From assembly GCA_017646665.1 (NCBI GenBank), contig JAGCMB010000067.1, forward strand, positions 1 through 39,377: a stretch of DNA of 39,377 nucleotides, in the 5' to 3' direction. The position numbers were made by a program, and so were the translations under genes. This DNA is from Bacteroidaceae bacterium (GTDB lineage: Bacteria; Bacteroidota; Bacteroidia; Bacteroidales; Bacteroidaceae). Below are positions 21,688-38,411 of this stretch, piece after piece. The notes beneath the pieces are model-generated. The model was not told the origin of the DNA. It worked only from the letters and a program-made list of their open reading frames with translations, and did not search any database. Position 1 is the stretch's first letter. Every line of letters begins with the position of its first letter.

Positions 21688-22155
21688 TTAGTATTCTACT
21701 TTGTCGCCTTTTTCTCTCCAGGCGTTGAAAGGTGCTTGGGCTTCCTTGTGTAAAATATTTTCAATGGGTTTGTGGCGTTCCTCGGGTTTGTGCTCCAGTT
21801 CGCGATATATGAACGAATCGTCAAAGTTCACCGCTGCTGCGTCGTGTTGGTTGGCTCCATAGAAAATTTTGTCTATATGTGCCCAGTATATGGCTCCAAG
21901 GCACATTGGGCAGGGCTCGCACGATGTGTATATGACGCAACCGCTAAGGTCGAAAGTTCCCAGTTTTGTGCACGCTGCGCGTATTGCGCACACCTCGGCG
22001 TGCGCAGTGGGGTCATTGTTCGGTGTCACGCGGTTCACGCCGGTGGCAACAATCTCTCCATTCTTTACAATGACAGCGCCGAAGGGGCCGCCGCCATTCT
22101 CAACATTCTCCACTGCAAGTTCAATTGCCTTGCGCATAAAATCCCGGTGATTCAT
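21688..22155 (-). CDS. guaD: Guanine deaminase (cytidine-deaminase fold)
   Basis: A 155-residue zinc enzyme. Zinc ligand and catalytic Glu are in TAHAEV (His52, Glu54), the two Cys ligands in SCEPCPMCLGAIYWA (Cys82, Cys85). From memory it resembles the Bacillus guanine deaminase GuaD along its whole length: GGPFGAVIVKNGEIVATG, NDPTAHAEV, FDDSFIYRE, and a final FNAWREKGDKVEY. The C-terminal swap segment and FDDSFIY favour guanine deaminase over the tRNA adenosine deaminase TadA. The reaction is guanine to xanthine in purine salvage. The start at 22155 is chosen over an in-frame ATG 60 bases upstream because it matches the family N-terminus. Confidence 0.88.
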   Translation of the reverse strand: MNHRDFMRKAIELAVENVENGGGPFGAVIVKNGEIVATGVNRVTPNNDPTAHAEVCAIRAACTKLGTFDLSGCVIYTSCEPCPMCLGAIYWAHIDKIFYGANQHDAAAVNFDDSFIYRELEHKPEERHKPIENILHKEAQAPFNAWREKGDKVEY

Positions 22156-22310
22156 AATTTTTCTTTTTCTTGCTTTGTAAACAATTTTGCAAAGCAAATG
22201 GTTCGCAGCAGACAAAATTAATAAAGTTTTTTATTTTTCATCTTTTTTTGTGTGGTCATCTAATATGCTGCCTATCCGATTGTTAAATAATGGAAAAAGT
22301 TATTTTTTTT

Positions 22311-22342
22311 ATTGAAAATTATGTAAATAATCCGTATCTTTG
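22311..22342 (+). promoter_or_regulatory. Promoter of the giant secreted-protein operon
   Basis: ATTG (22311-22314, one mismatch to TTTG), 20 bases, then consensus TATCTTTG (22335-22342). Transcription should start near 22349, giving a leader of about 115 bases. The rest of the 22156-22464 gap on the guaD side is AT-rich, with no clear guaD promoter. Confidence 0.7.
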
Positions 22343-22354
22343 CAGACTATGCTA

Positions 22355-22423
22355 ACACGCGGGTGCGTGCACCCGCGTGTAGCGTGCGCGCTTTCGCGTG
22401 CGAGTTGTGGCCGGGAAACCACC
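22355..22423 (+). promoter_or_regulatory. GC-rich, hairpin-rich 5' leader
   Basis: Bases 22355-22380 are a 12-bp perfect inverted repeat (ACACGCGGGTGC / GCACCCGCGTGT) with a 2-base centre. A second imperfect stem follows around CTTT at 22383-22402 (CGTGCGCG / CGCGTGCG), and a small one at 22407-22422 (GTGG / CCAC). The segment is far richer in G+C than its AT-rich flanks. It begins a few bases after the predicted transcription start, ends about 40 bases before the ATG and has no T run, so it is not a terminator. Confidence 0.7.
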
Positions 22424-22464
22424 GCCATTGAAGTGAAAACGAAAAATTAAAACAATAAAACTAA

Positions 22465-25400
22465 ATGAAGACAAAAAGACTCTTTCTTTGTTTGCTGTTC
22501 CTTGTGCTGGGAACAACTGCTTGGGCCGACAAGTACTATCAGCCCGGCTCTTACAAGGGCAACACAACGCCTCGCTTGACACTTGAACAGGCTGTTGGTG
22601 CGAAGTTCATGATTTACAACACTGCCCTCAATGGTAACAATGATGACCGCACCGGTTTCTTGCGTAACAACGGCGTGCAGTTCGAGCTCGACAAGTCGAA
22701 GGAGCGTGACTTCTTTGTGTACAACGAGACTTTCGTATATACATTGGAGGCATACGACGACAATGCCGATGGTGTTAACGATTGGTATGCCATCAAGTCT
22801 GTGAATACAGGCTTGTATGTGAATGCTGCCGGTAAGACCGATATCGGTTCGGCTGCCGATGCCAAGCTCATCATTACCTCTTGGGACAATGCGACAAGTG
22901 GAAAGTCCACTGTCAAATTGGAGAGCTGGAAGTACAACGTTGTTGAAAATGGCCAGATAACAAGTGGCGGCCACGGTAGCACTGTCTTTATCGTAAAGGA
23001 TTATAATGTTGTCGACAGACCCTATTGGAACGGTACATCAAACGGTTTCGATACCTGGGACGATGGTCACCCGTTTGCTTTCTACATTGCAAACGAGTTT
23101 ACCAGTGAAGAGAGCTATTTGCAGGATTTGCACATCTACAGCCGCTGTGACATATACTCGGCACAGGTAATCTATGGTCTTGTGCAGAGCCCATCACAGA
23201 TAACAACAAACCACCCATATGATGAGGGTGAAATTGCAAACCTGCTCGATGGTGATGGCGTTTCGTATCACGTTTCCGATTGGAGGGAGAATAACGCCGA
23301 TGATTATCACTACTACCAGGTTGACTTGGGCAAGGATGTAGAGTCGCTTTATCTTTATATGCAGCGCCGTGCCGATGGCAAGAATGCACCGACAAAGTAT
23401 GAACTGCAGGTGTGTGACACACCCGACGGACAGTTTGTAACCGTTGGTGGTGAGCGTGAAACAAATCTTGCCAACAGCAATGTTTATGCTTCGGACAAGA
23501 TTGAACTTGGCGGTTCTTACCGATATATCCGCATTGTGGCAAAAGAGAGAACGGTAAAAGAGGATGGAAACTTTATGTGTATGGGTCTCTCCGAACTTTA
23601 TGTTCTCCCGGGTACTACTGCTATCAAGGATGCCATAGATTATATTGCAATGGCAACAACCGACCCTGTATACACAAGAGCTACAGCAAAGGTATATAAG
23701 GATCTTGTTGAAAGATACAACACAGAGTGCCCCGATGCCAAACTCCTTTCGGGTGTGCCTATCCCCGGTAACAAGTACCGTATCTATGCCGATGCCTTCG
23801 ATGTTGAAAATGGCGTATATGTGAACCGTGAGATTAAGGCCGACAATGGTCTGCTGATTAAGGGACAGGGTTCATATAACGCAGAATCTGATGATAGTGA
23901 GAAAAATAAGTATGAGTGGTACTGCGAACAGACCTCTGATGGCTATCTTGTGTTCCGCAATGTTGCCGACCCTACAAAATACTTGGCTAACGGTGCTGTT
24001 GCCGATGAACCTTACAAGTGGAGTATGAGCACTTTGGGTACACAGCGTTTTGGTGTGCCATTGAAGAATATTGCGCAGCAGTATCTTGCTGTTGAAAATA
24101 ACGGTGGACTCTGGATGGGAAATGTGAGGGATGTTCAGAACCAGACCGTTGCACCTGCGTATGTTGACCACGACAATAATGCTGACACTGCCCCCGAGGA
24201 GGTTGCATCGGGCCTTTGTACCGACTTCGTGTTTATTCCCGTTCCGCTTGAAGGAGAGGAGAAAAAGATTACAATTATCGGTAACGAGCTTGTCAAGCGC
24301 AATACAAAGTTGCTTTTCGATTCAAACGGCGATGGAACAGCCGAGGTTCACTCGTTGCCATTCTCGCGTATGTTTGTGAATGCTACTAAATTCTCTACAA
24401 TGAGAATGCAGCTCCTTTGCAACGATATACACGTGTATCAGGGTATAAGACTCAACGATGAGGAGGGCTTGAACACTACTATTGCAACACTCAATGGCGA
24501 TGAGCTATCATTTGATTTCAATGCTGTAAATGACGGCGATATCCTTGATATACAGTTGCAGATAGAGCCACCGTTTGAGGTTATGTCATCGGTACTCGAT
24601 GTGACAGAAACGCCCTCTTTATATTTAATAAGGAATAAGCACCAGCAGGGCCTGGCACAGCAGGCACGCCCCAACCGCGCAAGCATAGACATTGGCGGTG
24701 ACGGCCCAATCTCATCACAAACAGGCAAGAGGTTCTATGCAAAGTTCAACCAGCGCGGTGCCGATATGGACTTGGTTGAGGGTTACGAAGATTGGACTGC
24801 AATAGAATTCGATGCAACATCACTCTTCTACTTTACAGAAACCGAGGATAGCAGTGTGGATGAGTATTACAGCGTGAACATCCATAACGCTACAACCGTG
24901 ATGAAGTGTGCCGACCACGCTGAGTGGAACAACAACGGTAACACCTGGTTTGTTCAGCCCAAGAAGATTTCAAATAACTTCGGTTATAACATTGGCCGCC
25001 ACCTCCTTGATGCAACAAACAATCCTACTGACGTATGGGGCTGCAACCACGAGGATGGTAACAAGATTGTGATGTCCAGAATCGATACTAACGGAACAGA
25101 GGTTCGCATCAGAGCGAATGATGACGGAACTGCTTGGGAGTTTATCAAGGTAGATGATGACACTGCCAAGAAAATGCTCAAGGAGTTTATTGACCACGTT
25201 GCCCAGGGACTGAATGATACACTTGATGCGAAAGCAACCCAGGAAGGTATCGATACTACAAAAGTTAAGTACTACCGCTTTATCATCAATACAATGACGG
25301 AGCGTGCAGCGGCTTATTATAAGGGTACAATCTATACCCCGGGTGAAGATGCTACTGCAAAGCTCTTGCAGTTTGCACAGAATATACACATGGTTGAGCA

Positions 25401-27852
25401 CGAGATTCAGTATGCTCTCTACGAACTGCCCGAACTTAGTGATGATGTTGTTGGTGTGTCAAGTACTCTCAAGACCTATGACCAACCTCATTGGTACTAC
25501 ATTCGCAATGTGAACGGTGTTGTGGATGGCAACGACAGCTATGCTGCTTTCAATGGCGGTAGCAACCCAATGGCTTTGCAGCAGTATGCGGCCAGTGCTG
25601 ACAAGAAACTTGCAAATATGTTCTACCTTGTAGGTGAGAAGAACTCATACGCTCCGGTGATGGACAGCGACCCCGACAACAATGGATTGTATCACGACTT
25701 CCCGGGCAATAACCTTATTGTCGATGAGTACCTGAAGGTTCACGTCCACAACTTCCTGGCCAAGGATATAACACTTGTCAGCAAGAACGTGCAGTTGGAC
25801 TCTATCAAGGATTATTTCCCCGGTCAGGGTCAACAGACCGTGATGAGCAACCTGAGCCTGAAGGGCGACGAGGACTGGAGTATTGAACTTGAGTATGACC
25901 TTGCTGGTAACACTTCGTTCAACGCCTACGGTAGCTGTTTGCTCGCATCAAGCGGTGAACCGCTTAGTGATAGCTATGTAGGTGGTTTCCAGGTTTATCT
26001 CAAGGACGACCGTTCTCTTGTAATCAAGTGCAACAATGCCGATGACCGCTACCGTTTTTGGCATACACAGGACTACTTCTCACACATCAAGGTGGTAATC
26101 ACATATTCACAGAAGAAGGTGACACTCGATGTCTATAACTCACTTGGCGAGAAGGAGACAATGACCATTACCAATGTGACATTGAATGATATTGATAAAC
26201 TCTCTTCGGCGCTGCCGTCAACAGGTGCAACAATCTCCAGCCTTAAGACCTATCAGGTCGAGGCGATGACCTGGAAGACACACGAGGAGGTTGATGGTGA
26301 TGCAAACAAGGATGACTGGTATATTCTCCCATCATCAAACGCAAACAAGGTTGGTCTTGCAATTGTGCTTGGCGAGCCCAACGATACCAAGATGGGTTGG
26401 ACAAACGGCGAGGGTGGTAATACATACATCTCAACCGACCTGGGAACTGCCGACAACTCGACCTGGAAGTTCGAGCGCGTGACCGACTTCGATGCTCACA
26501 TTGAAGAACTCATCAAAACATACAATTTTGAGGATTGTGTAATATATGACAAGGAACTAGCAAAGCTGTCTGCCATCATTAACGAGAAGGCTACATTCAT
26601 AACGGCCGGAGAGAATCAAGATGGTGAGGAAGCTGCATTCAACGAGGCTTACTATGCGTTCCTCAACTATACCGGCAGTATGCCCGAGGAACTCAAGGCA
26701 CCAAAGCCCGGCAACCTTTATACAATACGCCCCTTTGACGATATGGAGACCGATAATTCACTGCTTGTTTTCGTTGACAAGAGTGATGCCAACTACTCAA
26801 CAAAGGAGGTTTACAATGCCGACGCTATCCGCGATGATCGGAGCTATGATACCCGTGCTGTATGGAAGTTCGAGGGTACAGCCAATGGCGATTACCTTGA
26901 GCTTACAGGTCTCAAAGCAAAGAATATCCACACACAATGCTACTTGACAGCACTTGGTGCTGATGCTTCGGCAGTGAATGAGACCGACGCTGCTTCAATT
27001 GCTCTTTCACCACTTGGTGGCTGCACCACAATGTTCCAGGTGGGCGACAAGTATATGGCAATGAATGGCGCCAAGGTTACAAACGCCGGTGATGACAAAA
27101 CCAAGTGGATTGTCGAGGAAATCAAGAACCCCGAGGAGAGTGTGTACTACGAAACAAATACAAGCTCTTATGGTCACGCGACCTTGATGCTTGGTTTTGC
27201 CACTACAATTTCAGATGACGTTGTTGCATTCCATGGAGTGGATGATGGTGTTGTCTTGTCGAGCCGTTATATAAAGTTGACTTCTTATGATGGAGTGCTT
27301 CCTGCAATGGCTCCTGTGATATTGAGAAATGCCGATGAGAGCAATGATACAAAGACTGTAAGATTCTATTATACCGCTTCGGATGCCCAAAAAGAAGCAG
27401 ACAATTATATCTACGGTTCTTTGTACTATACAATAGTAGATTGTTCTTCATTTGATGATATTGATGGCGATGGTAATGCCGATAGGGACATTGATGTGTA
27501 TATGCTGAATTCAAGCGGCACTGCGGCAAAGATGTACCGTACATATGAGAACTACAACGCTGAAGGTGAAAAGGAAGTGATAAATGGTTCTACCAATCAT
27601 TTTCAAGGTGGTCACATTCCTTGTAAGGCCAACAAGGCATTTATGATACTCTCGAAAGAGGAATCCGCTAGCAAGAGCTCTTTCTCTCTGCGTTATGAAG
27701 AAGGTGCAACAACCGATATCGAATTTGTCGGAACAGAAGGTGATGTGCTCGAAGTGATAGAGACAATCTATGACCTCCAGGGTCGCAAGTTAGATAATAT
27801 AACATCTCCTGGTATATATATAATAAACGGTAAAAAGGTATTTGTTAAGTAA
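22465..27852 (+). CDS. Giant secreted multidomain protein with F5/8C and LamG-like modules, no recognised catalytic domain
   Basis: 1795 residues. A signal peptide (MKTKRLFLCLLFLVLGTTAW, cleavage after Ala21) is followed by a beta-rich N-terminal module (about 22-210) and an F5/8-type C (discoidin/CBM32-like) domain at about 248-382 (NLLDGDG, YYQVDLGKDV, YRYIRIVAKER). Module A at about 433-590 has KYRIYADAF, VADPTKYLA and CTDFVF. A concanavalin/LamG-like module B lies at about 1127-1262 (DEDWSIELEY, GGFQVYLKDD). The C-terminus is a type IX-like sorting tail (IYDLQGRKL...PGIYIINGKK). I recognise no enzyme active site. Modules A and B recur in the GH89 protein two genes downstream, so a partner role in binding the same surface or glycan is inferred. 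First gene of the operon. Confidence 0.85.
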   Translation: MKTKRLFLCLLFLVLGTTAWADKYYQPGSYKGNTTPRLTLEQAVGAKFMIYNTALNGNNDDRTGFLRNNGVQFELDKSKERDFFVYNETFVYTLEAYDDNADGVNDWYAIKSVNTGLYVNAAGKTDIGSAADAKLIITSWDNATSGKSTVKLESWKYNVVENGQITSGGHGSTVFIVKDYNVVDRPYWNGTSNGFDTWDDGHPFAFYIANEFTSEESYLQDLHIYSRCDIYSAQVIYGLVQSPSQITTNHPYDEGEIANLLDGDGVSYHVSDWRENNADDYHYYQVDLGKDVESLYLYMQRRADGKNAPTKYELQVCDTPDGQFVTVGGERETNLANSNVYASDKIELGGSYRYIRIVAKERTVKEDGNFMCMGLSELYVLPGTTAIKDAIDYIAMATTDPVYTRATAKVYKDLVERYNTECPDAKLLSGVPIPGNKYRIYADAFDVENGVYVNREIKADNGLLIKGQGSYNAESDDSEKNKYEWYCEQTSDGYLVFRNVADPTKYLANGAVADEPYKWSMSTLGTQRFGVPLKNIAQQYLAVENNGGLWMGNVRDVQNQTVAPAYVDHDNNADTAPEEVASGLCTDFVFIPVPLEGEEKKITIIGNELVKRNTKLLFDSNGDGTAEVHSLPFSRMFVNATKFSTMRMQLLCNDIHVYQGIRLNDEEGLNTTIATLNGDELSFDFNAVNDGDILDIQLQIEPPFEVMSSVLDVTETPSLYLIRNKHQQGLAQQARPNRASIDIGGDGPISSQTGKRFYAKFNQRGADMDLVEGYEDWTAIEFDATSLFYFTETEDSSVDEYYSVNIHNATTVMKCADHAEWNNNGNTWFVQPKKISNNFGYNIGRHLLDATNNPTDVWGCNHEDGNKIVMSRIDTNGTEVRIRANDDGTAWEFIKVDDDTAKKMLKEFIDHVAQGLNDTLDAKATQEGIDTTKVKYYRFIINTMTERAAAYYKGTIYTPGEDATAKLLQFAQNIHMVEHEIQYALYELPELSDDVVGVSSTLKTYDQPHWYYIRNVNGVVDGNDSYAAFNGGSNPMALQQYAASADKKLANMFYLVGEKNSYAPVMDSDPDNNGLYHDFPGNNLIVDEYLKVHVHNFLAKDITLVSKNVQLDSIKDYFPGQGQQTVMSNLSLKGDEDWSIELEYDLAGNTSFNAYGSCLLASSGEPLSDSYVGGFQVYLKDDRSLVIKCNNADDRYRFWHTQDYFSHIKVVITYSQKKVTLDVYNSLGEKETMTITNVTLNDIDKLSSALPSTGATISSLKTYQVEAMTWKTHEEVDGDANKDDWYILPSSNANKVGLAIVLGEPNDTKMGWTNGEGGNTYISTDLGTADNSTWKFERVTDFDAHIEELIKTYNFEDCVIYDKELAKLSAIINEKATFITAGENQDGEEAAFNEAYYAFLNYTGSMPEELKAPKPGNLYTIRPFDDMETDNSLLVFVDKSDANYSTKEVYNADAIRDDRSYDTRAVWKFEGTANGDYLELTGLKAKNIHTQCYLTALGADASAVNETDAASIALSPLGGCTTMFQVGDKYMAMNGAKVTNAGDDKTKWIVEEIKNPEESVYYETNTSSYGHATLMLGFATTISDDVVAFHGVDDGVVLSSRYIKLTSYDGVLPAMAPVILRNADESNDTKTVRFYYTASDAQKEADNYIYGSLYYTIVDCSSFDDIDGDGNADRDIDVYMLNSSGTAAKMYRTYENYNAEGEKEVINGSTNHFQGGHIPCKANKAFMILSKEESASKSSFSLRYEEGATTDIEFVGTEGDVLEVIETIYDLQGRKLDNITSPGIYIINGKKVFVK

Positions 27853-27866
27853 TAAGGAAAATGGCT

Positions 27867-28055
27867 ATGAAATACGAGACTATAAAAAAAGTATATGAGG
27901 CTCCGGTCGTTGATTATGTAGAACTGGAGATAAATACGATAATGCTTGATGGCTCAATTGTAGGAGAAGATGATGATGATGTGATTATAGATCCGGATAA
28001 TCAAAATGCCGGTGGTCATCGTGGCGATTGGGAAAATATTTGGGGAAATATGTAA
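27867..28055 (+). CDS. Small acidic protein between the two giant genes
   Basis: 62 residues from ATG 27867 (64 from 27861). The N-terminus reads MKYETIKKVYEAPVVDYVEL, then EINTIMLDGSIV, a run of acidic residues (GEDDDDVIIDPDNQ) and a Gly/Trp-containing end (NAGGHRGDWENIWGNM). No signal peptide or membrane segment. The pattern, Tyr-x-x-Pro-val-val with a following acidic Ser/Gly stretch, is one I recall from many short unannotated Bacteroidales proteins; I know no function. It begins 14 bases after the upstream giant gene and ends 11 bases before the GH89 gene, so it is clearly part of the same transcript. The very tight spacing and clean frame support a real gene. Confidence 0.75.
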   Translation: MKYETIKKVYEAPVVDYVELEINTIMLDGSIVGEDDDDVIIDPDNQNAGGHRGDWENIWGNM

Positions 28056-28066
28056 ATAACTATAAT

Positions 28067-31000
28067 ATGAAAAAGAACTTTTTTCTAACGTTAATGCTTG
28101 CGGTTGTAGCACTCTTTACAGTGCAGACAACAAATGCGCAGGCTCCGGTAGACAGCCCCGAACAGGCAATCACCGGATTGCTTAACCGTATTGGTGGCGA
28201 TGGCGCAGCCGACAAGTTCGAGATTGTGATTGATGCAAACCTCGCTGAGAATGGCAAGGATGTATTCATCATCACATCGCAGAACGGCAAGCCTTGCATC
28301 AAGGGTAACACACAGTTGTCGGTGGCAACAGGTATCAACTGGTACTTGAACCACCATGCACACATCAACCTCACTTGGAACAACCTCACAACCGACCTTG
28401 TGAATGCTACACTGCCTGTTCCTGGAAGCGAGGAAAAGCATGTTTGTAACACAACCTACCGTTACGACTTCAACACCTGTACATTCTCTTACTCAATGGC
28501 GTTCTGGACTTGGGACCGTTGGCAGAAGGAGATTGACTGGATGGCTCTGCACGGTATCAACGCTCCGTTGAACCTTGTGGGTTTGGATGTCGTTACACGT
28601 AAGTTCTTGCGCGAACTTGGCGTGAGCGAGAGTGACATCAACGCCTACATTGCCGGCCCGGGTTTCATCGCTTGGTTTGCAATGAACAACCTCGAGGGTT
28701 GGGGTGGTACAATCAACTCGCCTTCTACTGGCGTTGATATGAGCGGTAACCCCGACTGGTGGTACACCCGTCAGGAGCAGCTCTGCCGCAATATGCTCCA
28801 GCGTATGCGCGAGCTTGGTATGCAGCCTGTAATCCCCGGTTTCAGCGGTCAGGTTCCCAACTGCATAGTTAATTACTCAATCAACGGCTTCAGCAGCGGC
28901 GATGTAGTGAACAACGGTACTTGGGCCGGCGGTTACACACGCCCTGACATCCTGAAGCCAAACACAACAAGCTATCAGACTTTTGCAACTGTTTACTACA
29001 AGCACCTGCACGAGGTGATGGGTGTATCTGAACTCTACAGCATCGACCCATTTCACGAGGGTTCACTCCCCGGCGGCGTGACCAACGAGACTTGCTACCC
29101 CAATATTATGGTGGAGCTTGACAAGCATTTCGGCAATGTTGAGCAGAGTGTAAAGGATACATATAAAGTAACAAAATCTCCAAGCTGGATTATCCAGTAC
29201 TGGCAGGGTGTGCCACAGAGTGGTGCGTTCACAGCAATGAAGAACAAGGGTTACACAAGCCGTTTCATCGGTCTTGACCTCTTTGCCGACAATATCTATG
29301 CCGACAACGCTGCAAAGTGGAGAACAAACTATTATGACACTTGTCCATACATCTACTGTATGCTCCACAACTTCGGTGGCCGTAGCGGTCTACACGGTCG
29401 CTTGGAGACAACAATGGACGGTTACTTCCAGGCTCTTGCAAAGAACAACAACTGCCAGGGTATCGGTGCTACCCCCGAGGGTACAGAAACAAACCCTATC
29501 CTCTATGATATGCTCTTTGAGCTTCCTTGGATGGATGTAAACAACCGCCCCACAGCCGATGCGTGGTTGGCCGAGTATGCTCACTCACGCTACGGTGTTG
29601 ACTCAAAGACTGCCCCTGCAGCACTTGAGGCCTTGAAGAACCTCAAGAAGTCTGTTTGGGACTGTAAGGTGAACCAGCAGGGTACATCAGAGGCTGTTGT
29701 TCTTGCCCGTCCAAACTGGACAATCAACAGCGTTTCATCTTGGAGTACATCGGCTATCTACTGGGATACACAGGATGTGCTCCTTGCTGCCGACCAGTTG
29801 TATTCTGTAAAGGATATTGTAACTGCAAACGGCGGTCAGGACGGTATCGCAAACTATAACTATGACTTCATCGACGTTGTTCGTCAGGCAATGGTGGACT
29901 ATGCAGCACAGTTGCTGCCACTAATCAACGCCGCTCGTGGCAACGATGCAGAATATACTCGCCTCTATCAGCTCTATTTGCAGCTGATGCTCGACCTTGA
30001 CGAGATGCTCTCATACGACGAGAACTTCAAGCTCGAGCGTTGGACAAGCCTTGCACGCAACATTGCCGACGAGGTTGCCGGTACAACAGAGAACGACCGC
30101 AACTGGCTCGAGTGGAACGCGCGTACACAGGTGACAGTGTGGTCAAAGGGTAACACCGACCTTCACGACTACTCAAACCGTTGCTGGGCAGGCCTTATCA
30201 AGGACTTCCACTACAAGCGCTGGAAACAGTTCTTTGAGAACAACGGCAATGCTTTCAGTGGCGGCTGGTACAGCGGTTTCGAGTATCCCTGGACTGTTGA
30301 CTTCAACGAGACATATAACCTTGCGGGCGACTACTCACAGGTGGTTATTCCCAATGATATGACAGCTACCGAAAAGGCTGCTGAGACATTCGGCAACTAC
30401 TTCGGTCGTGTCAAGGGTGCTACCAAGAACTACATCTTCCCAATGGGTGTTGCAACAAACGCAACAAAGAGCGACGTTATCCCCGAGGTCTATCGTGGCC
30501 AGGAGGTAGAGCTTCCTCTCATCATTGGCAAGAACGTAACAATCTCAAGCGTTTGGGTTGACCTCAACAACGACGGCAATGCCGGCAACGGTGAGACACT
30601 CACTGCCAACGGCAACAATGTGACAATCCCTGCCGATGCAGCTATTGGCAAGACAACAGCTAAGGTTACATACAGCGACGGCACTGTCATCACATTCAAC
30701 CTCGCGCTCATTGAGGATATTACAACAGAGCGTACCGTAACGGCTGTTGCAGGTGCGAACGGTTCGGTTGCCATCGAGGGTACAAACGAACTCTCAATCA
30801 CAACAACCGAGGCTGTGAAGATTACTGCAACTGCAAACACCGGTTACAACTTCGAGAACTGGACAAAGGGCGGTGAGGTTGTAAGCAACGACAACCCATT
30901 CATCTACTATGCAAAGGAGGAGGCAACATTCACTGCAAACTTCATCCAGGACAAGTGGGGTGTGCCAACAGAGGACAAGAGCGACTGGGGCGATGCAACA

Positions 31001-34000
31001 GTAAAGACATCGTTTGTGAACGAACTTACTTTTGCTTATTACAACCGTGAGCCCGAGACTATCTACGAGGCATCTGTTGCCCCCGATAATCTCTTCAATA
31101 CCATATCACAGATTATAAATGTACCACAGGGCGCAAGCTTTGATGTTACTTGGAGCGATGACACTAATAACGGTCTAAAATATTGCTATTTGAGTGCATA
31201 CATCGACCTTAATGCCGATGGTGATTTCACCGACGAGGGCGAGCTCTTGAAGGTTGCCGGTACAAAGGGCGCGGAGAGCACTACTGCCTGCGAGGGTAAA
31301 ATCAATGTTATTCTGCCTTACGATGCTCCTTTGGGTCTCACCCATATGCGCTTGCGTTTCGACGGTGCTTGGAAGGACAACGGTTACGATGCAGCAACAA
31401 AATCTTACGATGCAAAGGCACAGCTCAACCGTATGTGCTACGAGATTGTCATCAATGTAACCGAGAAGAGTGATAAGGCCGCAACAATCAATGTTGAGAC
31501 CAACAGCGCAGAGTGGGGTACAGTTGAGGTTTGGACCGATGAAACCCCCGACGGCTCAACAGGCACTGAGTGGGTTGTAAGTGCGAATATCCCAATGTAC
31601 TTGCGTGCTACAAAGGCAAGTGAGGATGTTGAGTTCCTCGGCTGGTACGACCAGTATGGCCGTTTGATCACAGAGAACTTGGAGCACACAATGTACGCCC
31701 GCGAGGATGCTACCTACACAGCCCGTTTCCGCAAGTTCCTTGAAATCGACGGCTGGCAGATTGAGTACCGCACACAGCCCGGCAGTGATGTTGTTACAAC
31801 AAAGCTTGCTAACGGTGTAAAACCTGTGGCTGGCAAGAAATACTATATCTATGCACCTACACGCCCCACAAATGACGGCGAGTATGTGAACCGTTACCTC
31901 TACAACAACAGCGGTACACTTACATTGAGTACAACAGAATCTACTGCTGCAAGTTATTTGTGGCTCTGTAGCATTGAGGACGGAAAATATGTGTTCCAGA
32001 ATGTCGGTGACCCAACAAAGTACCTCATGCATAAAGGCATGACCTCTTCATCATACGGTTTTGAACTTGGTACAGGTACAACATACTATGAGGGTCTCAC
32101 AATGCAGTCTGTTCCCGGTAATGGCGAATCACGTAACCTGTTTTTTGTTATAAATGATGATGGTAGCGGATTCAACCAGTCAACAAGGGCCCACGACCAG
32201 TCAACTGAGGATCATTGTACTGATTTTGTATTTACCGAGGTTTCTGTTCCTGAAGTGGTAATTCTTACCAATATCCGCAAGAGCGGTGACCACGACCTTG
32301 TAATCCCAGAGACTGTTGAGATTCTTGGTGAGCAGTTGAAGATTGTAGGTTTTGAAAATAACCTTTTCAAGAACAACAAGGACCTGTGGTCTATCAGCTT
32401 GCCATCTACCATTGAGCAGTTGAGCGACAACAAGGTGTTCACAGGTGCTGTGAAGGGTAAGGGTGCAAATGCTTCTGCCAACACTTCAAATTATATCACT
32501 ACCGACCTGGGCGTAACCTGTGCAGCCGGCGAGGATTGGTCTATCTCTTTGACAATCACAGACAACGGCAATAACTTTAACCAATGGGGTTCTGCGCTCA
32601 TTGCAACAGGAAATGCGCCAATGAACAGCACATACGCTAAAGGTTTCCAGCTTTATATGCAGGCCGGTGGCGGTTTGGTCGTAAAGACCGATGTCGATGG
32701 TGACGGAAACAAACTCACAAACCTTGCAAAGGGTACAAAGTATAGAATTGATATTGTATATACACACTCAAATACCAAGCTTGTAGTAACTGCAACTCCA
32801 CTTGGAGCTGCATCGGCTGTTGCAGCACGCACAGGCGTAGCACGCGCAGCAGCGGCAAGCCTGGAGATTACACAGGATATGTCCGACTTCAGCGTTGTAT
32901 CTCACGCAATCCCCGAGGGCGTGGACATCACCAGCCTCGAGGTGCGCAAGGGTACAGAGCCCGACCCATTCGAGGGCTGTACAAACTTGCTCGGTATTGA
33001 AGTTGCCGACGGTTGCGAGAACTATTATGTTGACGAAGAAACTCGCACTCTCAAAAGTACAGGCGGTACAACCCTTCACACTCTTGCCGATGAGGAGAAA
33101 GAGGATGAAATCCGCGCTCTTGGCGAGTTGATTGACCTTGCCGAGGCTTTGGTTGCAGAGGTTGCAACTGTCAACCCAACAGGCAAGGCAACAGAGATTG
33201 CGCTCAATGCAACACAGGGCAATGATTACTATATTTGGTGTAATAACCCACACACCAGCGGCGACGATGGCGCGGGTGGTGTAGCTGCTCTGCTCGATGA
33301 GGATGCAGGTTCTTATCTGCACTCAAACTGGAGTTCGCTCTCTTCTACACACGACTACTTGCAGATTGATTTCGGCAATGCAGTTGGTTTGGATAACTTC
33401 AAAATTGCCGGTCAGCAGCGTAACGGCGGTTCTAACGACCGTCCAAAGAATATTGAAATCTATGGTAGCAATGATGGAACGAACTGGACACCAATCACCA
33501 CTGTAGAGGGCTTGCCTAATACTTCCGGTGCTACTTGGGAGTCGGGTGCTATTTCTGCTGCTGAAAGATATTCTCATTTGAAGTTTATCGTAAAGACACA
33601 CGATAACTATAATCAGACCTCTTCAGTGAGCCGTCCTTACTTCCACATGGCGAAGTTTGACCTCTACAAGCTTACATCAACAGCCGAGGTTGCAAATGTT
33701 TACAAGAACCTTGCAGGCGTAACCGCAACAGAGGTTGAGAATGTCTATGACAACTTGGCCGAGGCTTTGTACTACTACAACAACGGCGGCACTGCCGAGC
33801 AGTTGACTGCTGCATACAATGCGCTTGAGCCTTTGTACACTGCTCTCAATGCAAAGAAGGATAAGGTGTTCAATGGTGTGTATAACATCTACTTTAGCGG
33901 TGACCCAGTGTTTGTGGCGTATGCCGAGGCAAATGAGTTGAATGGTCTTACAGGTGGAAATATAGCCGGTTTCAGATTGTTCGATGGTGCTGTAACTCAT

Positions 34001-37000
34001 GAGGGCGCTGCTGATGGCAATACCGGTGCACAAAAGGAATTCCACGAACTTGTCATCACTAATCGTGCAGTAGCTGATGCTCTCTTTACAATTGTCCCCA
34101 ATGCGGATGCTACAGGTTATATCTTGTCGGCTCAGGGACAGTATATGCAGACGACTGCCGTGCACGGTCAGTGGTCGATACAGGCTTTTGATGCCGACGA
34201 GGCAAAAGCCGGTGTCTACCTTTTTGAGGCTGCAGAGTCGGCAGATATATATAAATTGAGGAGTAACAAGGAGGATGGTCTGCAATATGTGAATGACTGG
34301 GGACCTGTGTTCGGTAATAATAGTGCAAGTGATACTTACGCGAGATTCTCGCTCACACAAGTAACCGAGTACACCCTCAATGTTCCTGCAAATGGTGTAA
34401 CAACACTCTGCTTGCCATTCAACGTGGTGTTGCCAGCGGGTGTTACAGCATACGACCTTGCTAAGGCTAACATTATAAAGGGTGAGCACTACAATAAATA
34501 TGAGCTTGTAGAGGTTGCAGGCGAGAATGAGACTCTTGCAAAGAATACTCCTGTAATAATCAAGGCTGATACCAATGATTATATTCTCACAATTACAATG
34601 GATGGTGAGGGTGCAAAGGCTTCGGTTGAGAACTCGGTGTTGCGCAGTGGTATTGTAAAGACAACTGTTGCTGCAGGTAACAACTACACATTCGACGGTG
34701 TGGACTTCAACCTTGTTGCTACTGATACAGAGGTTGCTGCCAACCAGTGCTGGATGGAGCTCGACGAGAACTTGGGTGCTAAAATCTATGGTACAGCACC
34801 CGATTATGTGCTGACAACCGACGAGGAGAATCCTGTTCTCTACAAGATTATCATCAAGCGTGCCAACGACAATTCAAAGGTATTGAGCTATGATGAGCCT
34901 ACAAGCGAAAAGGTGAAGATTGTAGACAACACTGCAAACAGCAGTTACCAGGCTTGGTACTTTGTACAGGGTGAGAACGGTATCATTATCAAACCCTACA
35001 ATGCCGATGGCAGAATGCTTACCATTGAGAGCACCGGTGATGGCGCAGGTAAGGCTATGATTGCAGCTGATGGCGCAAGCAATTTCCAGGAGTGGAGCTT
35101 TACAAAGTCAACACAGAGCGGTTGCACCGATTACTATTATATAAAGGTAGTAGGTGGTGAAGGCAATGCCGGAACATTCTCTCACAATGGTGGCTTTGGT
35201 GTAACTTCTTATATGGGAATCTGGGCAAATGGCTTCAATTCTGACGACGGCGGTTCACTCTTCAAGTTCGTTGACGCTGAGTTTGCCGATGACAACGCAC
35301 GCTTCTATCAGTTGAACGATGTATTGCCAACATTGGACCAAGGTATTTATACAGGTGAAAGTGTAGGTCTTTACTCAGCAGACGGTGTTGCGGCTTTGAA
35401 TACAAAATGTACCGAGGCTCAGGCACTTGTTGATGCCGGTAGCAATGCAAGCGCAAGCGATGCTTGCTATGCGATGTACAAGGCGTTGCGTGCTGCCAAG
35501 GTGGCTGCATACAATGCTCCTGCAGCCGACAAGGTTTACTACATTGTATCGACAGCTACAGGCGATGGCCACGCTTATTGCACAGGCAAGTATGTACACA
35601 CATACAGTAAGCCTCATGAGCACAAGAATGCAACCTGGGGTGACAAGACATACGACCAGCATCACCTGTTGTTCGACGCCGAGGGTGACATTGAACAGTT
35701 GTCACTTGCTGCGTTCCAGTTCGAGGAGACCGGCACAATGGGTGAATACAAGATGAAGAACCTGCACACAGGCCTTTATGTGAAGTCATTTAACAACAAT
35801 GTTGAGCATATGGGCACTGCTGCTGATGCTGCTGTTGTTAAGATTGCCGGTATTGCCGATGGTCAGGTGACACTGAAGATTGGTAACAACAACCCAATGC
35901 ACGCGCAGAACGATTATAGCGTGATTGTTACTTGGGGCGCCGAGGCCAATAATCCATCTACCTGGACTATAAACGAGGTTGAAGATATGTCGGAGCTTTA
36001 TAGCCTTAATGTTCCTGCAAGCGGTGTTACAACTCTTAACCTTGCGTTCAACGTTGTGTTGCCACAGGGTGTTACAGCATACGACTATGTTGAGAGTGAT
36101 ATCAGTGGCAATGAATTTACATTGACACAGGTGGCTGCTGCGGGTGATGTTCTTGCAAAGAACACTCCTGTAATCATCAAGGCTGCTGAGGCTGAATATC
36201 CTTTGACCGTTACAATGAGCGATGAGAATGTAGTGAACGGCACTGCAAATTCTGTTTTGCGCGGTAACTATTGGCAGACAACAGTGGGCACAGCCGAGCT
36301 TAACTATCTGCCGGGTGTCGATGGCGAAAGACTTGCGTTCAACAAGGTTGCAGCCGATGATACAGCTGTTGCAGCAAACACTGTTTGGGCGGTGATGACA
36401 AACGACCAGGGTGAGACAATCTATGAGCTTGAAGTAGCTCCGGAGGTTGAGATTGTTGTCGGTGGTGTTTATCGCATAAGGAACTATACCAGTAGGACTG
36501 CCGATGCCTACAAGACTCACTACATTGCGAATACCAATGCAAGTATAACATTCCCTGTTTCGGTCGAGGCCGATGACAATAGCGCTATGTGGGTTTGTAC
36601 AGGTATCAACGACGGCAAGTACAAGTTCGCGAGTGCGCTTGGTACAGCAGCCTTTGGATGGAGGTGTGCCGACGAGGAGGCTGTGGAGTATGCAATTACA
36701 GACGGTGTTGTCGATGGCGCAAAGACATTGACCTATGTCGATGGTTCTGGTACCAGCATGAACCTTGCACTCACAACCGAAGGACATAACAACAGTGGAG
36801 TTGCAGCTTTCAACCAGGCTTCAAACAATAATGGTATCAACATTGTTCAGGCCGAGAACTGGTCAACAGACTGGTACTTCGAGGAGGTTGAGAACCCAAG
36901 CGTAAGCTTTACAAAGTCTATCAACAAGGGTAATAAGTGGGCTACAATGTACTTGCCATACGCTGTTGCAATACCTGATGGTGTTGATGTTTTCTACGCT

Positions 37001-37519
37001 GTTGAAAATGCAATTAATAATAACGTTATTGATTTGACTTCGATTGCAGGTACAATCCCTGCAAAGACAGCTGTTCTTCTCTATCGTGTTGAGAACACCG
37101 AGAAGACTGCGAGCTTTGAGTTTGCTCTTGCCGAGGATGTTGCGCCTGTTGCATCGAACCTCTTTAAAGGTAAGATTATGCAGACTGCAATTGATGCTAC
37201 CGATGCAAGGGTTTACCTGTTGGTTAACTACAATGCAACGGAGAAATTCTATTGGATGGCTGCAGAGTATGATGCTAATTGCCAGCTCAGCAACGAAGGC
37301 GGTTATGTGAAGTGCGATGCCAACAAGTGTTACTTGAAGATTGAGGACAACGCTTCTCCTGCTTCATCTTTCAGCTTCCGCTACGAGGGCACAACTGGCA
37401 TTGAGGAGGTTGAGACTGAAGAGGTAAAAGCTATTTATGACCTCCAGGGCCGCAAGCTCACCGAGGTTACCAAGCCCGGTTTCTACATCGTAGATGGCGA
37501 GAAAGTGCTGGTTAAGTGA
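28067..37519 (+). CDS. Giant secreted alpha-N-acetylglucosaminidase (GH89) with many accessory modules
   Basis: 3150 residues with signal peptide MKKNFFLTLMLAVVALFTVQ, cleaved after TTNAQA. The NAGLU/GH89 unit spans about 24-760: N-terminal domain, then barrel (FWTWDRWQKEIDWMALHGIN, GFSGQVP, FGGRSGLHGR). Likely acid/base is Glu331 (DPFHEG) and nucleophile Glu471 (GATPEGTETNP), spaced as in human NAGLU. It should remove terminal alpha-GlcNAc from mucin-type or heparan glycans. Then come InlB-like units (about 890-960, 1140-1222) around a GEVED domain (1012-1132), module A (1255-1390), a BspA-like LRR interrupted by LamG-like module B (1398-1675), F5/8C (1705-1870), two or three copies of a repeat beginning NVPAxGVTTL (2101, 2644, degenerate near 2945), and a type IX-like tail. 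The 28067 start places the signal peptide first; an upstream in-frame ATG lies inside the previous gene. Confidence 0.93.
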   Translation: MKKNFFLTLMLAVVALFTVQTTNAQAPVDSPEQAITGLLNRIGGDGAADKFEIVIDANLAENGKDVFIITSQNGKPCIKGNTQLSVATGINWYLNHHAHINLTWNNLTTDLVNATLPVPGSEEKHVCNTTYRYDFNTCTFSYSMAFWTWDRWQKEIDWMALHGINAPLNLVGLDVVTRKFLRELGVSESDINAYIAGPGFIAWFAMNNLEGWGGTINSPSTGVDMSGNPDWWYTRQEQLCRNMLQRMRELGMQPVIPGFSGQVPNCIVNYSINGFSSGDVVNNGTWAGGYTRPDILKPNTTSYQTFATVYYKHLHEVMGVSELYSIDPFHEGSLPGGVTNETCYPNIMVELDKHFGNVEQSVKDTYKVTKSPSWIIQYWQGVPQSGAFTAMKNKGYTSRFIGLDLFADNIYADNAAKWRTNYYDTCPYIYCMLHNFGGRSGLHGRLETTMDGYFQALAKNNNCQGIGATPEGTETNPILYDMLFELPWMDVNNRPTADAWLAEYAHSRYGVDSKTAPAALEALKNLKKSVWDCKVNQQGTSEAVVLARPNWTINSVSSWSTSAIYWDTQDVLLAADQLYSVKDIVTANGGQDGIANYNYDFIDVVRQAMVDYAAQLLPLINAARGNDAEYTRLYQLYLQLMLDLDEMLSYDENFKLERWTSLARNIADEVAGTTENDRNWLEWNARTQVTVWSKGNTDLHDYSNRCWAGLIKDFHYKRWKQFFENNGNAFSGGWYSGFEYPWTVDFNETYNLAGDYSQVVIPNDMTATEKAAETFGNYFGRVKGATKNYIFPMGVATNATKSDVIPEVYRGQEVELPLIIGKNVTISSVWVDLNNDGNAGNGETLTANGNNVTIPADAAIGKTTAKVTYSDGTVITFNLALIEDITTERTVTAVAGANGSVAIEGTNELSITTTEAVKITATANTGYNFENWTKGGEVVSNDNPFIYYAKEEATFTANFIQDKWGVPTEDKSDWGDATVKTSFVNELTFAYYNREPETIYEASVAPDNLFNTISQIINVPQGASFDVTWSDDTNNGLKYCYLSAYIDLNADGDFTDEGELLKVAGTKGAESTTACEGKINVILPYDAPLGLTHMRLRFDGAWKDNGYDAATKSYDAKAQLNRMCYEIVINVTEKSDKAATINVETNSAEWGTVEVWTDETPDGSTGTEWVVSANIPMYLRATKASEDVEFLGWYDQYGRLITENLEHTMYAREDATYTARFRKFLEIDGWQIEYRTQPGSDVVTTKLANGVKPVAGKKYYIYAPTRPTNDGEYVNRYLYNNSGTLTLSTTESTAASYLWLCSIEDGKYVFQNVGDPTKYLMHKGMTSSSYGFELGTGTTYYEGLTMQSVPGNGESRNLFFVINDDGSGFNQSTRAHDQSTEDHCTDFVFTEVSVPEVVILTNIRKSGDHDLVIPETVEILGEQLKIVGFENNLFKNNKDLWSISLPSTIEQLSDNKVFTGAVKGKGANASANTSNYITTDLGVTCAAGEDWSISLTITDNGNNFNQWGSALIATGNAPMNSTYAKGFQLYMQAGGGLVVKTDVDGDGNKLTNLAKGTKYRIDIVYTHSNTKLVVTATPLGAASAVAARTGVARAAAASLEITQDMSDFSVVSHAIPEGVDITSLEVRKGTEPDPFEGCTNLLGIEVADGCENYYVDEETRTLKSTGGTTLHTLADEEKEDEIRALGELIDLAEALVAEVATVNPTGKATEIALNATQGNDYYIWCNNPHTSGDDGAGGVAALLDEDAGSYLHSNWSSLSSTHDYLQIDFGNAVGLDNFKIAGQQRNGGSNDRPKNIEIYGSNDGTNWTPITTVEGLPNTSGATWESGAISAAERYSHLKFIVKTHDNYNQTSSVSRPYFHMAKFDLYKLTSTAEVANVYKNLAGVTATEVENVYDNLAEALYYYNNGGTAEQLTAAYNALEPLYTALNAKKDKVFNGVYNIYFSGDPVFVAYAEANELNGLTGGNIAGFRLFDGAVTHEGAADGNTGAQKEFHELVITNRAVADALFTIVPNADATGYILSAQGQYMQTTAVHGQWSIQAFDADEAKAGVYLFEAAESADIYKLRSNKEDGLQYVNDWGPVFGNNSASDTYARFSLTQVTEYTLNVPANGVTTLCLPFNVVLPAGVTAYDLAKANIIKGEHYNKYELVEVAGENETLAKNTPVIIKADTNDYILTITMDGEGAKASVENSVLRSGIVKTTVAAGNNYTFDGVDFNLVATDTEVAANQCWMELDENLGAKIYGTAPDYVLTTDEENPVLYKIIIKRANDNSKVLSYDEPTSEKVKIVDNTANSSYQAWYFVQGENGIIIKPYNADGRMLTIESTGDGAGKAMIAADGASNFQEWSFTKSTQSGCTDYYYIKVVGGEGNAGTFSHNGGFGVTSYMGIWANGFNSDDGGSLFKFVDAEFADDNARFYQLNDVLPTLDQGIYTGESVGLYSADGVAALNTKCTEAQALVDAGSNASASDACYAMYKALRAAKVAAYNAPAADKVYYIVSTATGDGHAYCTGKYVHTYSKPHEHKNATWGDKTYDQHHLLFDAEGDIEQLSLAAFQFEETGTMGEYKMKNLHTGLYVKSFNNNVEHMGTAADAAVVKIAGIADGQVTLKIGNNNPMHAQNDYSVIVTWGAEANNPSTWTINEVEDMSELYSLNVPASGVTTLNLAFNVVLPQGVTAYDYVESDISGNEFTLTQVAAAGDVLAKNTPVIIKAAEAEYPLTVTMSDENVVNGTANSVLRGNYWQTTVGTAELNYLPGVDGERLAFNKVAADDTAVAANTVWAVMTNDQGETIYELEVAPEVEIVVGGVYRIRNYTSRTADAYKTHYIANTNASITFPVSVEADDNSAMWVCTGINDGKYKFASALGTAAFGWRCADEEAVEYAITDGVVDGAKTLTYVDGSGTSMNLALTTEGHNNSGVAAFNQASNNNGINIVQAENWSTDWYFEEVENPSVSFTKSINKGNKWATMYLPYAVAIPDGVDVFYAVENAINNNVIDLTSIAGTIPAKTAVLLYRVENTEKTASFEFALAEDVAPVASNLFKGKIMQTAIDATDARVYLLVNYNATEKFYWMAAEYDANCQLSNEGGYVKCDANKCYLKIEDNASPASSFSFRYEGTTGIEEVETEEVKAIYDLQGRKLTEVTKPGFYIVDGEKVLVK

Positions 37520-37680
37520 GAGCAATGATTGATAAGCTTGCTTAATCAGGCATTGCCGAGCGCAAAGCAGTTGCGCGAAGCGAAAGTTTAGGTTAAGTGA
37601 GAGCAATGATTGATAAGCTTGCTTAATCAAGCATTGCCGAGCGCGAAGCAGTTGCGCGAAGCGAAAGTTTGGATTAAGTA
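37510..37680 (+). repeat. 81-bp tandem repeat copying the GH89 gene 3' end
   Basis: Two nearly identical units start at 37510 and 37591, and a 10-base partial third starts at 37671. Each begins GGTTAAGTGA, so the last codons and stop of the GH89 gene are part of unit one. Each unit holds an imperfect hairpin pairing GCAATG with CATTGC around GATAAGCTTGCTTAATC, then the direct repeat GCGCGAAGC...GCGCGAAGC (first copy GCGCAAAGC). The units differ at a few positions only. No protein is assigned here. Confidence 0.85.
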
Positions 37681-37704
37681 ATGTAGTTATCCTGAATAAT
37701 TGAA

Positions 37705-37744
37705 CAAGTGGTGGCAAAACGTTTTGCCACCGCTTGTTTTTTTG
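37705..37744 (+). terminator. Terminator of the giant-protein operon
   Basis: The stem CAAGTGGTGGCAAAA / TTTTGCCACCGCTTG with a 2-base centre (CG) and one G-T pair is followed by a long T run. It is about 185 bases after the GH89 stop, beyond the tandem repeat, so the repeat is transcribed. Confidence 0.88.
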
Positions 37745-37771: not shown

Positions 37772-37787
37772 CGCTATGGGAAAGTCA

Positions 37788-38411
37788 ATGTTTCATATAA
37801 TGCGGTTGCTTGCGGCCTGTGCCGTTGTGGTGGGGGTGTCTCTCTGTTGCCGGCCACAGGGGCGTGGTGTGGAGTTCAAGGATATTCCCGTTGACAGTGT
37901 CCGCAACGGTGATATCGTCTTCAGGCGTGGGCGCAGCTTCTCGAGCGGGATGATACTGGCCCATGACAAGGGGAGCAGCTACAGCCACATTGGCATTGTG
38001 TGCCGCATTGATACGATGCTGTGTGTGGTACACGCAGTGAATGAGGAACCCGATTTTGATGGTGACTTTGACCGTGTGAAGATGGAGCCTCTGGAATGCT
38101 TCTTCTCAAAGGAGAGGGCAAGTGCCGGCGCTATGTACCACAGCTGGATTGGTGACAGCTTATCGGCCATCATTACGGCAAGGGCTATGCAGCTTGCGCG
38201 CGACAGCGTGCGTTTTGATGCATCCTTCAATCACCACGACCGTTCTGAACTCTATTGCACCGAACTGGTGTATCACCTGTATGAAGGTGTAGGCATTGAC
38301 ATCACCCAGGGACGGCGCACAAAGGTTGGAATAATGTCTTTCCCCGATGAGGTGATATTCCCCGATGATATACAGGAGAATAAAAATAACGTCAAATATT
38401 TTGAATTCTAA
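37788..38411 (+). CDS. YiiX/YebB-like permuted papain-fold (NlpC/P60-type) lipoprotein
   Basis: About 207 residues (211 from the ATG at 37776). The signal segment RLLAACAVVVGVSLCC ends in a lipobox-like Cys. The fold is the permuted NlpC/P60 type (DUF830): DSVRNGDIVFRRG near the start, the His motif SSYSHIGIVC, a later HHDRSELYCTELVYHLYEG containing the likely catalytic Cys, and the end VGIMSFPDEVIFPDDI. Relatives are amidases or acylhydrolases acting on peptidoglycan, lipids or proteins; the substrate cannot be told. The start is placed at 37788 because the candidate promoter ends 4 bases before 37776; 37800 is also possible. It stands alone, between the giant operon and a small lipoprotein gene. 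Confidence 0.83.
   Translation: MFHIMRLLAACAVVVGVSLCCRPQGRGVEFKDIPVDSVRNGDIVFRRGRSFSSGMILAHDKGSSYSHIGIVCRIDTMLCVVHAVNEEPDFDGDFDRVKMEPLECFFSKERASAGAMYHSWIGDSLSAIITARAMQLARDSVRFDASFNHHDRSELYCTELVYHLYEGVGIDITQGRRTKVGIMSFPDEVIFPDDIQENKNNVKYFEF

Follow-up and report, generated by a model that had tools for sequence, protein, structure and literature searches.

Genes for putative small peptide precursors paired with genes for type IX-like secreted proteins in a Bacteroidaceae genus, with a candidate maturation operon elsewhere in the genome

The window, a 39,377-nucleotide stretch of a Bacteroidaceae genome, contains a small gene between two giant genes. This small gene appears to belong to a dispersed set of genes for modified-peptide precursors that are paired with genes for surface proteins. 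The pairing is the firm result: the real unit is a tailed giant and a small protein. For its function, we lean toward a reading in which the small proteins are a scattered family of precursors in Bacteroidota like those of linear polyphosphorylated peptides (LPPs), made together with type IX cargo and matured in trans; the link between the small proteins and the maturation operon described below is one that we infer.

RESULTS

The locus consists of three head-to-tail genes, and all of its features lie on the forward (+) strand. The ORFs run from 22465 to 27852 (giant 1, 1795 amino acids), from 27861 or 27867 to 28055 (the small protein, 64 or 62 amino acids), and from 28067 to 37519 (giant 2, a 3150-amino-acid GH89 enzyme). 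Giant 1 and the small gene are separated by 14 bases if the ATG at 27867 is used and by 8 if the start is 27861, and 11 bases separate the small gene from giant 2. These coordinates confirm the layout and the 14- and 11-base gaps described in a sequence-only reading of this DNA, which had also assigned the locus one promoter and one terminator. A probable promoter of the Bacteroidota type was found at 22312 to 22342, with TTGAAA at 22312 and TATCTTTG at 22335, as a consensus match only; the box at 22335 fits TAnnTTTG, the Bacteroidota-type promoter consensus. Terminator-like hairpins numbered 12 in the stretch versus 13.5 in shuffles, and a terminator scan gave a single match with more than 8 stem pairs, a 17-pair hairpin at 37702 to 37739 followed by T's. 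Because the gaps are so short and there is a single strong terminator, the genes are probably carried on one transcript. No SusC or SusD domain was present in the 16 other window genes scanned, which agrees with the earlier statement that this is not a standard polysaccharide utilization locus. The claim that no regulator is adjacent holds only if adjacency is read strictly: a LytTR sensor/response-regulator pair (19803 to 21648) is separated from the start of giant 1 by about 0.8 kb and a single deaminase gene.

Both giants are predicted to be secreted. Giant 1 has an F5/8 type C domain at residues 245 to 362 (PF00754, 1.2e-10) and a KxxxK tail; no enzyme domain was found in Pfam or NCBIfam, and back-translated peptides found no named relatives. 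By domain search and alignment, giant 2 carries GEVED, F5/8C, and InlB-like modules and a KxxxK tail. It matched NAGLU_N, NAGLU, and NAGLU_C in Pfam (E values of 7e-19, 9e-93, and 3e-50), and its E331 and E471 (P0003) align with E483 and E601, the catalytic glutamates of CpGH89. The NAGLU domains and both active-site glutamates point to a GH89 enzyme, as had been proposed. The modules and tail that the two giants were said to share were likewise recovered (BLASTP, 4e-29), and F5/8C modules occur in both. The type IX-like tails lie at 27619 to 27849 in giant 1 (IYDLQGRK...GIYIINGKKVFVK; tail alignment A8) and at 37286 to 37516 in giant 2 (tail alignment). All 14 rows of alignment A8 contain the KxxxK signature, and the Pfam and NCBIfam sorting models do not match these tails; a figure legend in PMC9477747 gives this signature for the C-terminal domain of type IX cargo. 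The type IX machine, judged from SprA alone, is present in this genome (SprA_N, 5.9e-197) and in 44 of 44 genomes of the genus, versus 0 of 14 controls.

Giant 1 was found in 12 genomes of the genus, including this one, and the small gene follows it directly in all 12. The GH89 giant comes next in 8 of the 11 testable genomes and is absent from that place in 3; in one further genome the contig ends. The gene order whose conservation the sequence-only reading had named as a check therefore holds fully for the first two genes and partly for the third. That reading had suggested that the three products could form a surface complex for alpha-GlcNAc-capped host glycans, and the frequent triplet order, the F5/8C modules of both giants, and the presence of the active-site glutamates give the idea partial support. 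However, the 3 genomes have giant 1 and the small gene with no adjoining GH89 gene, the distance from the small gene to the GH89 gene ranges between 11 and about 300 bases, and the small family stands behind many other cargos. Since most small genes in the fetched sample follow tailed proteins other than those of the GH89 locus, the small protein is specific neither to this locus nor to GH89, and we consider a dedicated complex of all three very improbable. We propose instead that the GH89 protein is a cargo enzyme whose gene frequently neighbors that of giant 1 and that it does not explain why the small gene is there.

The small protein (27861 to 28055; 64 amino acids, or 62 from the ATG at 27867) is, from its ORF and family comparison, a predicted peptide precursor. 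It matched no Pfam or NCBIfam family, yet it belongs to a large, unnamed one with 11 matches in its own genome, 291 across the 44 genomes of the genus, and matches at an E value of ≤0.01 in 129 of 201 genomes sampled from the taxonomic family; the size of this family rules out a chance ORF. Three features are constant in it: Y-x-x-P, a single serine 18 to 21 residues further along, and a Trp motif at the C terminus. Among 81 relatives collected, Y and P are found in 81, a serine at Y+18 to Y+21 in 79 (versus a 29% background), and a hydrophobic residue at Y+16 in 80, figures that partly reflect selection because the members were collected with a model holding those residues. Here, the YxxP motif is YEAP (27894 to 27905), a predicted RRE-binding site by analogy with the LPP leader (PMC13381572). 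Ser32 (27954 to 27956), the only serine of the protein, is the predicted phosphorylation site (core S3) by analogy with S3 of LppA, and the leader is expected to be cut before D30-G31-S32. Family comparison also identified the conserved C-terminal motif RGDWENIW (28020 to 28043). A triceptide-like reading of the WxNxW end was dropped once the kinase/peptidase/RRE operon appeared.

We then asked what lies upstream of the small genes. In a hand-picked set of 60 hits, 46 are directly downstream of a same-strand gene with a KxxxK tail (46 of the 55 readable hits, that is, those not cut by a contig end), the tails being called with an HMM built from 19 other tail sequences; the same HMM finds such a tail in 8 of 342 control genes. 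Of the nine readable misses, two (L173 and L184) appear tailed on visual inspection, and the remaining seven (L140, L162, L166, L168, L175, L176, and L186) lack a tailed gene immediately upstream. A second, named set of 62 hits, which overlaps the first, gave 39 of 47 readable. Conversely, of the 18 tailed genes inspected in this genome, only 6 are followed by a small gene (5 found by motif and 1 with a broken start). In a control by regular expression, a small gene follows 6 of 109 "non-tailed" genes, 3 of which (L143, L159, and L165) seem to carry a variant tail not captured by the expression. No such pairing appeared in the open-license literature searched.

This pairing could also arise if the small protein were an unmodified accessory of the upstream type IX cargo, such as a chaperone, stabilizer, or folding partner, with no tie to RiPP enzymes. 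The constant partner of the small gene is indeed the upstream tailed gene, the C-terminal RGxWxNxW is retained as a binding motif would be, and the precursors are unlinked to enzymes in their own genome. A chaperone, however, would not be expected to have a common YxxP and a serine at a set position, and both are features of LPP leaders; furthermore, 12 of the 18 tailed genes have no small gene, and some small-gene copies have no tailed gene upstream. We regard the accessory role as possible but rather unlikely.

What favors a modified precursor is an unlinked LPP-like operon in the same genome (at C19) encoding an HprK-like kinase (TIGR04355, 4e-6), a signal-peptidase-like (SpI/SipW-like) protease (TIGR02228, 5e-6), and a discrete PqqD-type RRE (PF05402, 1.7e-13), the start of the second gene overlapping the stop of the first. 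Only PqqD exceeds a curated cutoff (that of Pfam); the peptidase is below the Pfam and NCBIfam cutoffs, as is the kinase (TIGR04352, 1.5e-5), which has an invariant GxSGxGKSTH. No precursor gene is next to this operon. Among 30 kinase loci in the genus, 29 have a peptidase-like gene and 27 have a PqqD-like gene. Ser39, His77, and Asp92 are invariant in 29 of 29 peptidases; the LPP peptidase LppS uses Ser/His/Asp, and the equivalence of the Asp is only presumed. Asn35 and Asp74 are invariant in 30 of 30 RREs and match the positions of N33 and D70 of LppB, which hold the P and Y of YxxP (PMC13381572), so N35 and D74 may do the same; this equivalence rests on position and on alignment to TfuB1, LppB being compared by position only. 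An RRE profile found the lasso RREs TfuB1 (1.9e-7) and TbiB1 (0.043), and no informative match came from searching PDB sequences with the peptidase or the kinase.

Neighborhoods in the genus, read by eye, showed no NTP transferase or exporter beside the operon. A relative from another genus (L263) has the full LPP set of kinase, peptidase, RRE, NTP_transf_5, and ABC genes. At L264, a YxxP small gene is part of one same-strand series of genes that includes the kinase, RRE, and peptidase, and at L181 one adjoins the operon. In 20 kinase neighborhoods from other genera, a credible YxxP small gene was seen in only 2 (L264 and L266); a regular-expression match at L250 was discarded because it overlaps other frames.

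Because L264 contains an Asn-synthase-like gene as well, its cluster could be of the lasso type. That the small proteins as a whole are lasso peptide precursors would fit this gene, the YxxP leader with its B1-like RRE of the PqqD type, and the matches of 2 of 30 family members to the NCBIfam model lasso_cyano (best E value, 0.17). Against it, the C19 operon has no cyclase, and Transglut_core3 (B2) had no match at an E value of ≤1 in this genome (92% complete), compared with matches in 6 of 14 controls, 1 of them over the cutoff. We give the lasso assignment little credence.

Finally, we examined whether small genes and kinase occur together. With orthologs at an E value of <1e-100, the genus has 32 genomes with both, 0 with the kinase only, 5 with small genes only, and 7 with neither (P = 2e-5); with kinases down to an E value of ≤1e-5, the counts are 32, 3, 5, and 4 (P = 0.024). 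In the taxonomic family, at an E value of ≤1e-5, 121 genomes have both, 8 have small genes only, 43 have the kinase only, and 29 have neither (P = 5e-9). Five of the seven "neither" genomes fall in one clade of the genus tree, and among tree-independent pairs 1 to 3 of 5 are concordant and none is discordant (median P of the sign test, 0.5). The co-occurrence is thus not significant after tree correction, and both the tree and the looser kinase cutoff weaken it as proof of a maturation link. In the 5 genomes with small genes only, no kinase ortholog was found; one of them (G011) is 94% complete and has 10 matches. Small genes are not a mere marker of type IX, nor is the co-occurrence a by-product of having it, since all 44 genomes have SprA, including the 7 with no small-gene match.

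DISCUSSION

Given these results, we suggest a general two-gene unit, in which a gene for a surface protein exported by Sec and type IX precedes a gene for a 50- to 71-amino-acid peptide precursor. Its hosts would be an uncultured Bacteroidaceae genus, mostly from ruminant guts, and relatives, and both genes would be read from one transcript. In the cytoplasm, the PqqD-type RRE of C19 would bind the YxxP leader, the HprK-like kinase of that operon would phosphorylate the conserved serine (Ser32 here), and its SipW-like protease would cut before the core start, D-G-S here and A-x-S elsewhere. An acidic phosphopeptide with a Trp-rich end might then be released from the cell, by way of an ABC exporter in relatives that encode it, and might function on the cell surface together with its co-made cargo or the polysaccharide anchor of that cargo. 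With maturation shared in trans, one enzyme set would serve about ten scattered precursors. The complete scheme, in which one trans-acting kinase/peptidase/RRE set yields many phosphopeptides, each a partner or anchor ligand of its co-made type IX protein, is put forward tentatively. If true, it would add a peptide-modification layer to the type IX secretome of Bacteroidota, extend the LPP class beyond Bacillota to another phylum, and give LPPs a first concrete, testable role as the partner of a co-encoded surface protein.

Giant 2 is like the GH89 alpha-N-acetylglucosaminidase CpGH89 (2vc9) in having three NAGLU domains and both glutamates and unlike it in having 3150 amino acids, about 2400 residues of them in other modules. 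Like type IX cargo with a KxxxK C-terminal domain, such as Paraprevotella 00502 (PMC9477747), the giants are modular, predicted to be secreted, and KxxxK tailed in a genome with SprA; unlike that cargo, their tails are missed by the Pfam and NCBIfam sorting models, and a small gene follows giant 1. Paeninodin-like and other phosphorylated lasso peptides share the YxxP/WxxP leader, B1 RRE, and HprK-like kinase, whereas here the motif has Tyr, not Trp, and no B2 transglutaminase-like peptidase was found in the genome.

Another close comparison is with the LPPs of the Paenibacillus type, a class that its 2026 description confines to Bacillota and leaves without an assigned role (PMC13381572, also the source of what follows). 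Their clusters encode a discrete RRE, an HprK-like kinase, an SpI/SipW-like peptidase, an NTP transferase, and an MsbA-like exporter, with the precursor gene inside. The leader motif is YxxPxVLxHQxIxFETxxS, Y-16 to S3 spans 18 residues, the core begins A-Q-S, serine 3 is polyphosphorylated, and the C termini vary. The present system differs in its host phylum, in the location of its many precursors, scattered behind type IX-like cargo genes and away from the enzymes, in lacking the HQxIxFET remainder of the leader, in the conserved RGxWxNxW end, and in the genus operon having no NTP transferase or exporter seen beside it; its activity is a prediction from its genes. What it shares with LPPs is the discrete RRE, HprK-like kinase, and SipW-like peptidase in its own genome, a YxxP leader with a serine 18 to 21 residues on, and, in the relative L263, a complete set that includes the NTP transferase and the ABC exporter.

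The locus and its order in relatives

The sequence-only reading had described three open reading frames, gaps of 14 and 11 bases between them and one strong terminator, and all of these were found. The products are a secreted protein of 1795 residues (giant 1, 22465..27852, + strand), a small protein of 62 or 64 residues that is a predicted peptide precursor (P0002, 27861 or 27867..28055, +) and a secreted GH89 enzyme of 3150 residues (giant 2, 28067..37519, +). A domain search of giant 1 found F5/8C and no enzyme domain. Giant 2 combines GH89, with both active-site glutamates kept, with GEVED, InlB-like and F5/8C modules. Its gene end and 3' region are covered by an 81-base unit present as two tandem copies (37501-37662, 94% identical). 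The tails of both giants end in K-x-x-x-K, but because neither tail matched sorting-domain models, we call them only likely type IX-like. The genome (2.13 Mb, 92% complete, with the window as contig C3) encodes SprA, the type IX channel protein; metagenome-assembled genomes (MAGs) of the same group, labelled Bacteroidaceae bacterium or Bacteroidales bacterium, come mostly from ruminant guts.

Just before giant 1 lie genes for a LytTR-type sensor kinase and response regulator (19803-21648, +), with a deaminase gene in between (21688-22215, -). Genes of like lengths and positions, judged by eye, flank giant 1 in the genus genome G025 (locus L064), and the LytTR pair is a possible regulator of the giant 1 unit. 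Elsewhere in the window, an Omp85/POTRA gene adjoins a TamB-like gene as an outer-membrane assembly pair (1441-8366, -), and a C92-family permuted papain-like amidase is encoded directly past the terminator (37776-38411, +).

Giant 1 was matched at 1e-30 in 13 of the 44 genus genomes. G038 was dropped from the order count, its match being confined to the last 421 residues, and in G043 giant 1 is truncated by the contig. In all 12 remaining genomes a small gene comes next after giant 1. A GH89 gene is third in eight (the genome under study, G005, where it is truncated by the contig end, G007, G009, G019, G021, G024 and G025), and a non-GH89 gene is third in G002, G017 and G043; the contig of G012 stops after the small gene.

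Most sampled small genes follow tailed genes

We hand-picked 60 small-gene matches among the matches listed (39 from genus relatives, 1 from this genome and 20 from other genera), fetched about 4 kb on each side where the contig was long enough and detected tails with an HMM built from 19 tails of other loci. Directly upstream of 46 of the 60 small genes, on the same strand, was a gene for a protein with the type IX-like KxxxK tail (median gap, 79.5 bases; range, 12-478); five were cut by contig ends and nine were not tailed by the HMM. As a control, the tail was found in 8 of 342 further genes from the fetched DNA. In an overlapping set of 62 named loci, 15 had fewer than 700 bases upstream and 39 of the remaining 47 were tailed; in one of the eight misses (L314), the tail is in a separate frame just upstream. 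We judge the GH89 complex suggested from the sequence alone to be a special case of this wider pairing and not its cause.

The small-gene partner is selective: of the 18 tailed genes of this genome that were examined and had 300 bases or more downstream, only 6 are followed by one (five by motif, plus the one on C22). That copy (C22:40846-41016; L009, L076) follows a tailed gene without an in-register start, which is a pseudogene or an assembly slip.

An orphan subclass with a near-constant core (APDSDDSEFGAP) lacks a tailed gene directly upstream (C55:60496-60654 in this genome, which is L168, and L308, L312, L316 and L318) and also occurs in MAGs labelled Rikenellaceae and Alistipes. At L166 and L318, no tailed gene precedes the small gene, and a lipoprotein-like gene, recognized by eye, follows about 14-40 bases after it.

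The small family

Searched against its own genome at E<=10, P0002 matched 10 places. An alignment of 11 small proteins gave 11 matches there at E<=0.01 and 291 matches spread over 37 of the 44 genus genomes. Of 201 family genomes, 129 had matches to it, one of them 28. Small genes often lie no more than a few hundred bases from contig ends (C14:67-228, C47:33913-34074, C33:23922-23969 and several relatives), and some copies hardly differ from one another; the tail and small-gene region may be a repeat at which assemblies break.

The 81 members collected are 50-71 residues long, and the Y and P of a YxxP motif are fixed, owing in part to how members were found. A serine stands at Y+18-21 in 79 of 81, compared with 29% for a random four-residue window in the rest of the core. 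Only the Y, the P, this serine and one C-terminal W are invariant in a 30-member alignment. M-L-A-A-S is the commonest context of this serine; in P0002, where it is the sole serine, the context is M-L-D-G-S.

A kinase, peptidase and RRE operon

Because the small-protein leader resembled lasso leaders, we searched the genome for PqqD-type leader-binding domains (RREs). The one match above the cut-off, on C19, stands third in an operon encoding an HprK-like kinase (P0004), a signal-peptidase-like protein (P0005), whose start overlaps the stop of the first gene, and the RRE (P0006). By a simple motif scan of 30 genus kinase loci, the peptidase is present in 29 and a PqqD-like gene in 27, and the operon was found in other genera too.

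The gene order, the pairing, the small family and the operon with its conserved residues are shown directly by the sequences. We infer that this operon acts on the small proteins; a role of the product outside the cell is speculative. At L181, the operon's neighbours include a small gene together with its tailed cargo. Of the 20 kinase neighbourhoods that we read from other genera, two have a YxxP small gene. At L264 it is the first of a series of genes on one strand that includes TonB receptor, kinase, flippase-like, Asn-synthase-like, RRE and peptidase genes, and at L266, which by eye is like a polysaccharide locus, it has a kinase gene, an RRE-like gene and a nucleotidyltransferase gene nearby.

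Raw co-occurrence of small genes and kinases is strong, and in the genus it is weaker with distant kinases counted (p 0.024). On an SprA tree, most double absences form one clade, and the tree-paired test, with 1-3 of 5 pairs concordant and none discordant, was without power. The clade's only small-positive member, G001, has a single match, and as both its sequence and the gene upstream of it are similar to G041's, the contig may be misplaced. SprA is present in all 44 genus genomes, so type IX alone is not enough for small genes to be present.

Linear polyphosphorylated peptides (LPPs) are described as restricted to Bacillota (PMC13381572). That account lists SpI, RRE, HprK-like kinase, NTP transferase and MsbA-like transporter genes, with YxxP precursors; S3 of a core starting A-Q-S receives several phosphates from the kinase, and the peptidase frees this core (PMC13381572). 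The LPP RRE residues named there are N33 and D70 (PMC13381572); all 30 of our RREs keep N35 and D74. An ABC exporter follows the operon at L261 and L262, and at L263 NTP_transf_5 and an ABC exporter follow it, so that the genes of this locus (kinase, peptidase, RRE, NTP_transf_5 and ABC exporter) match the LPP gene list.
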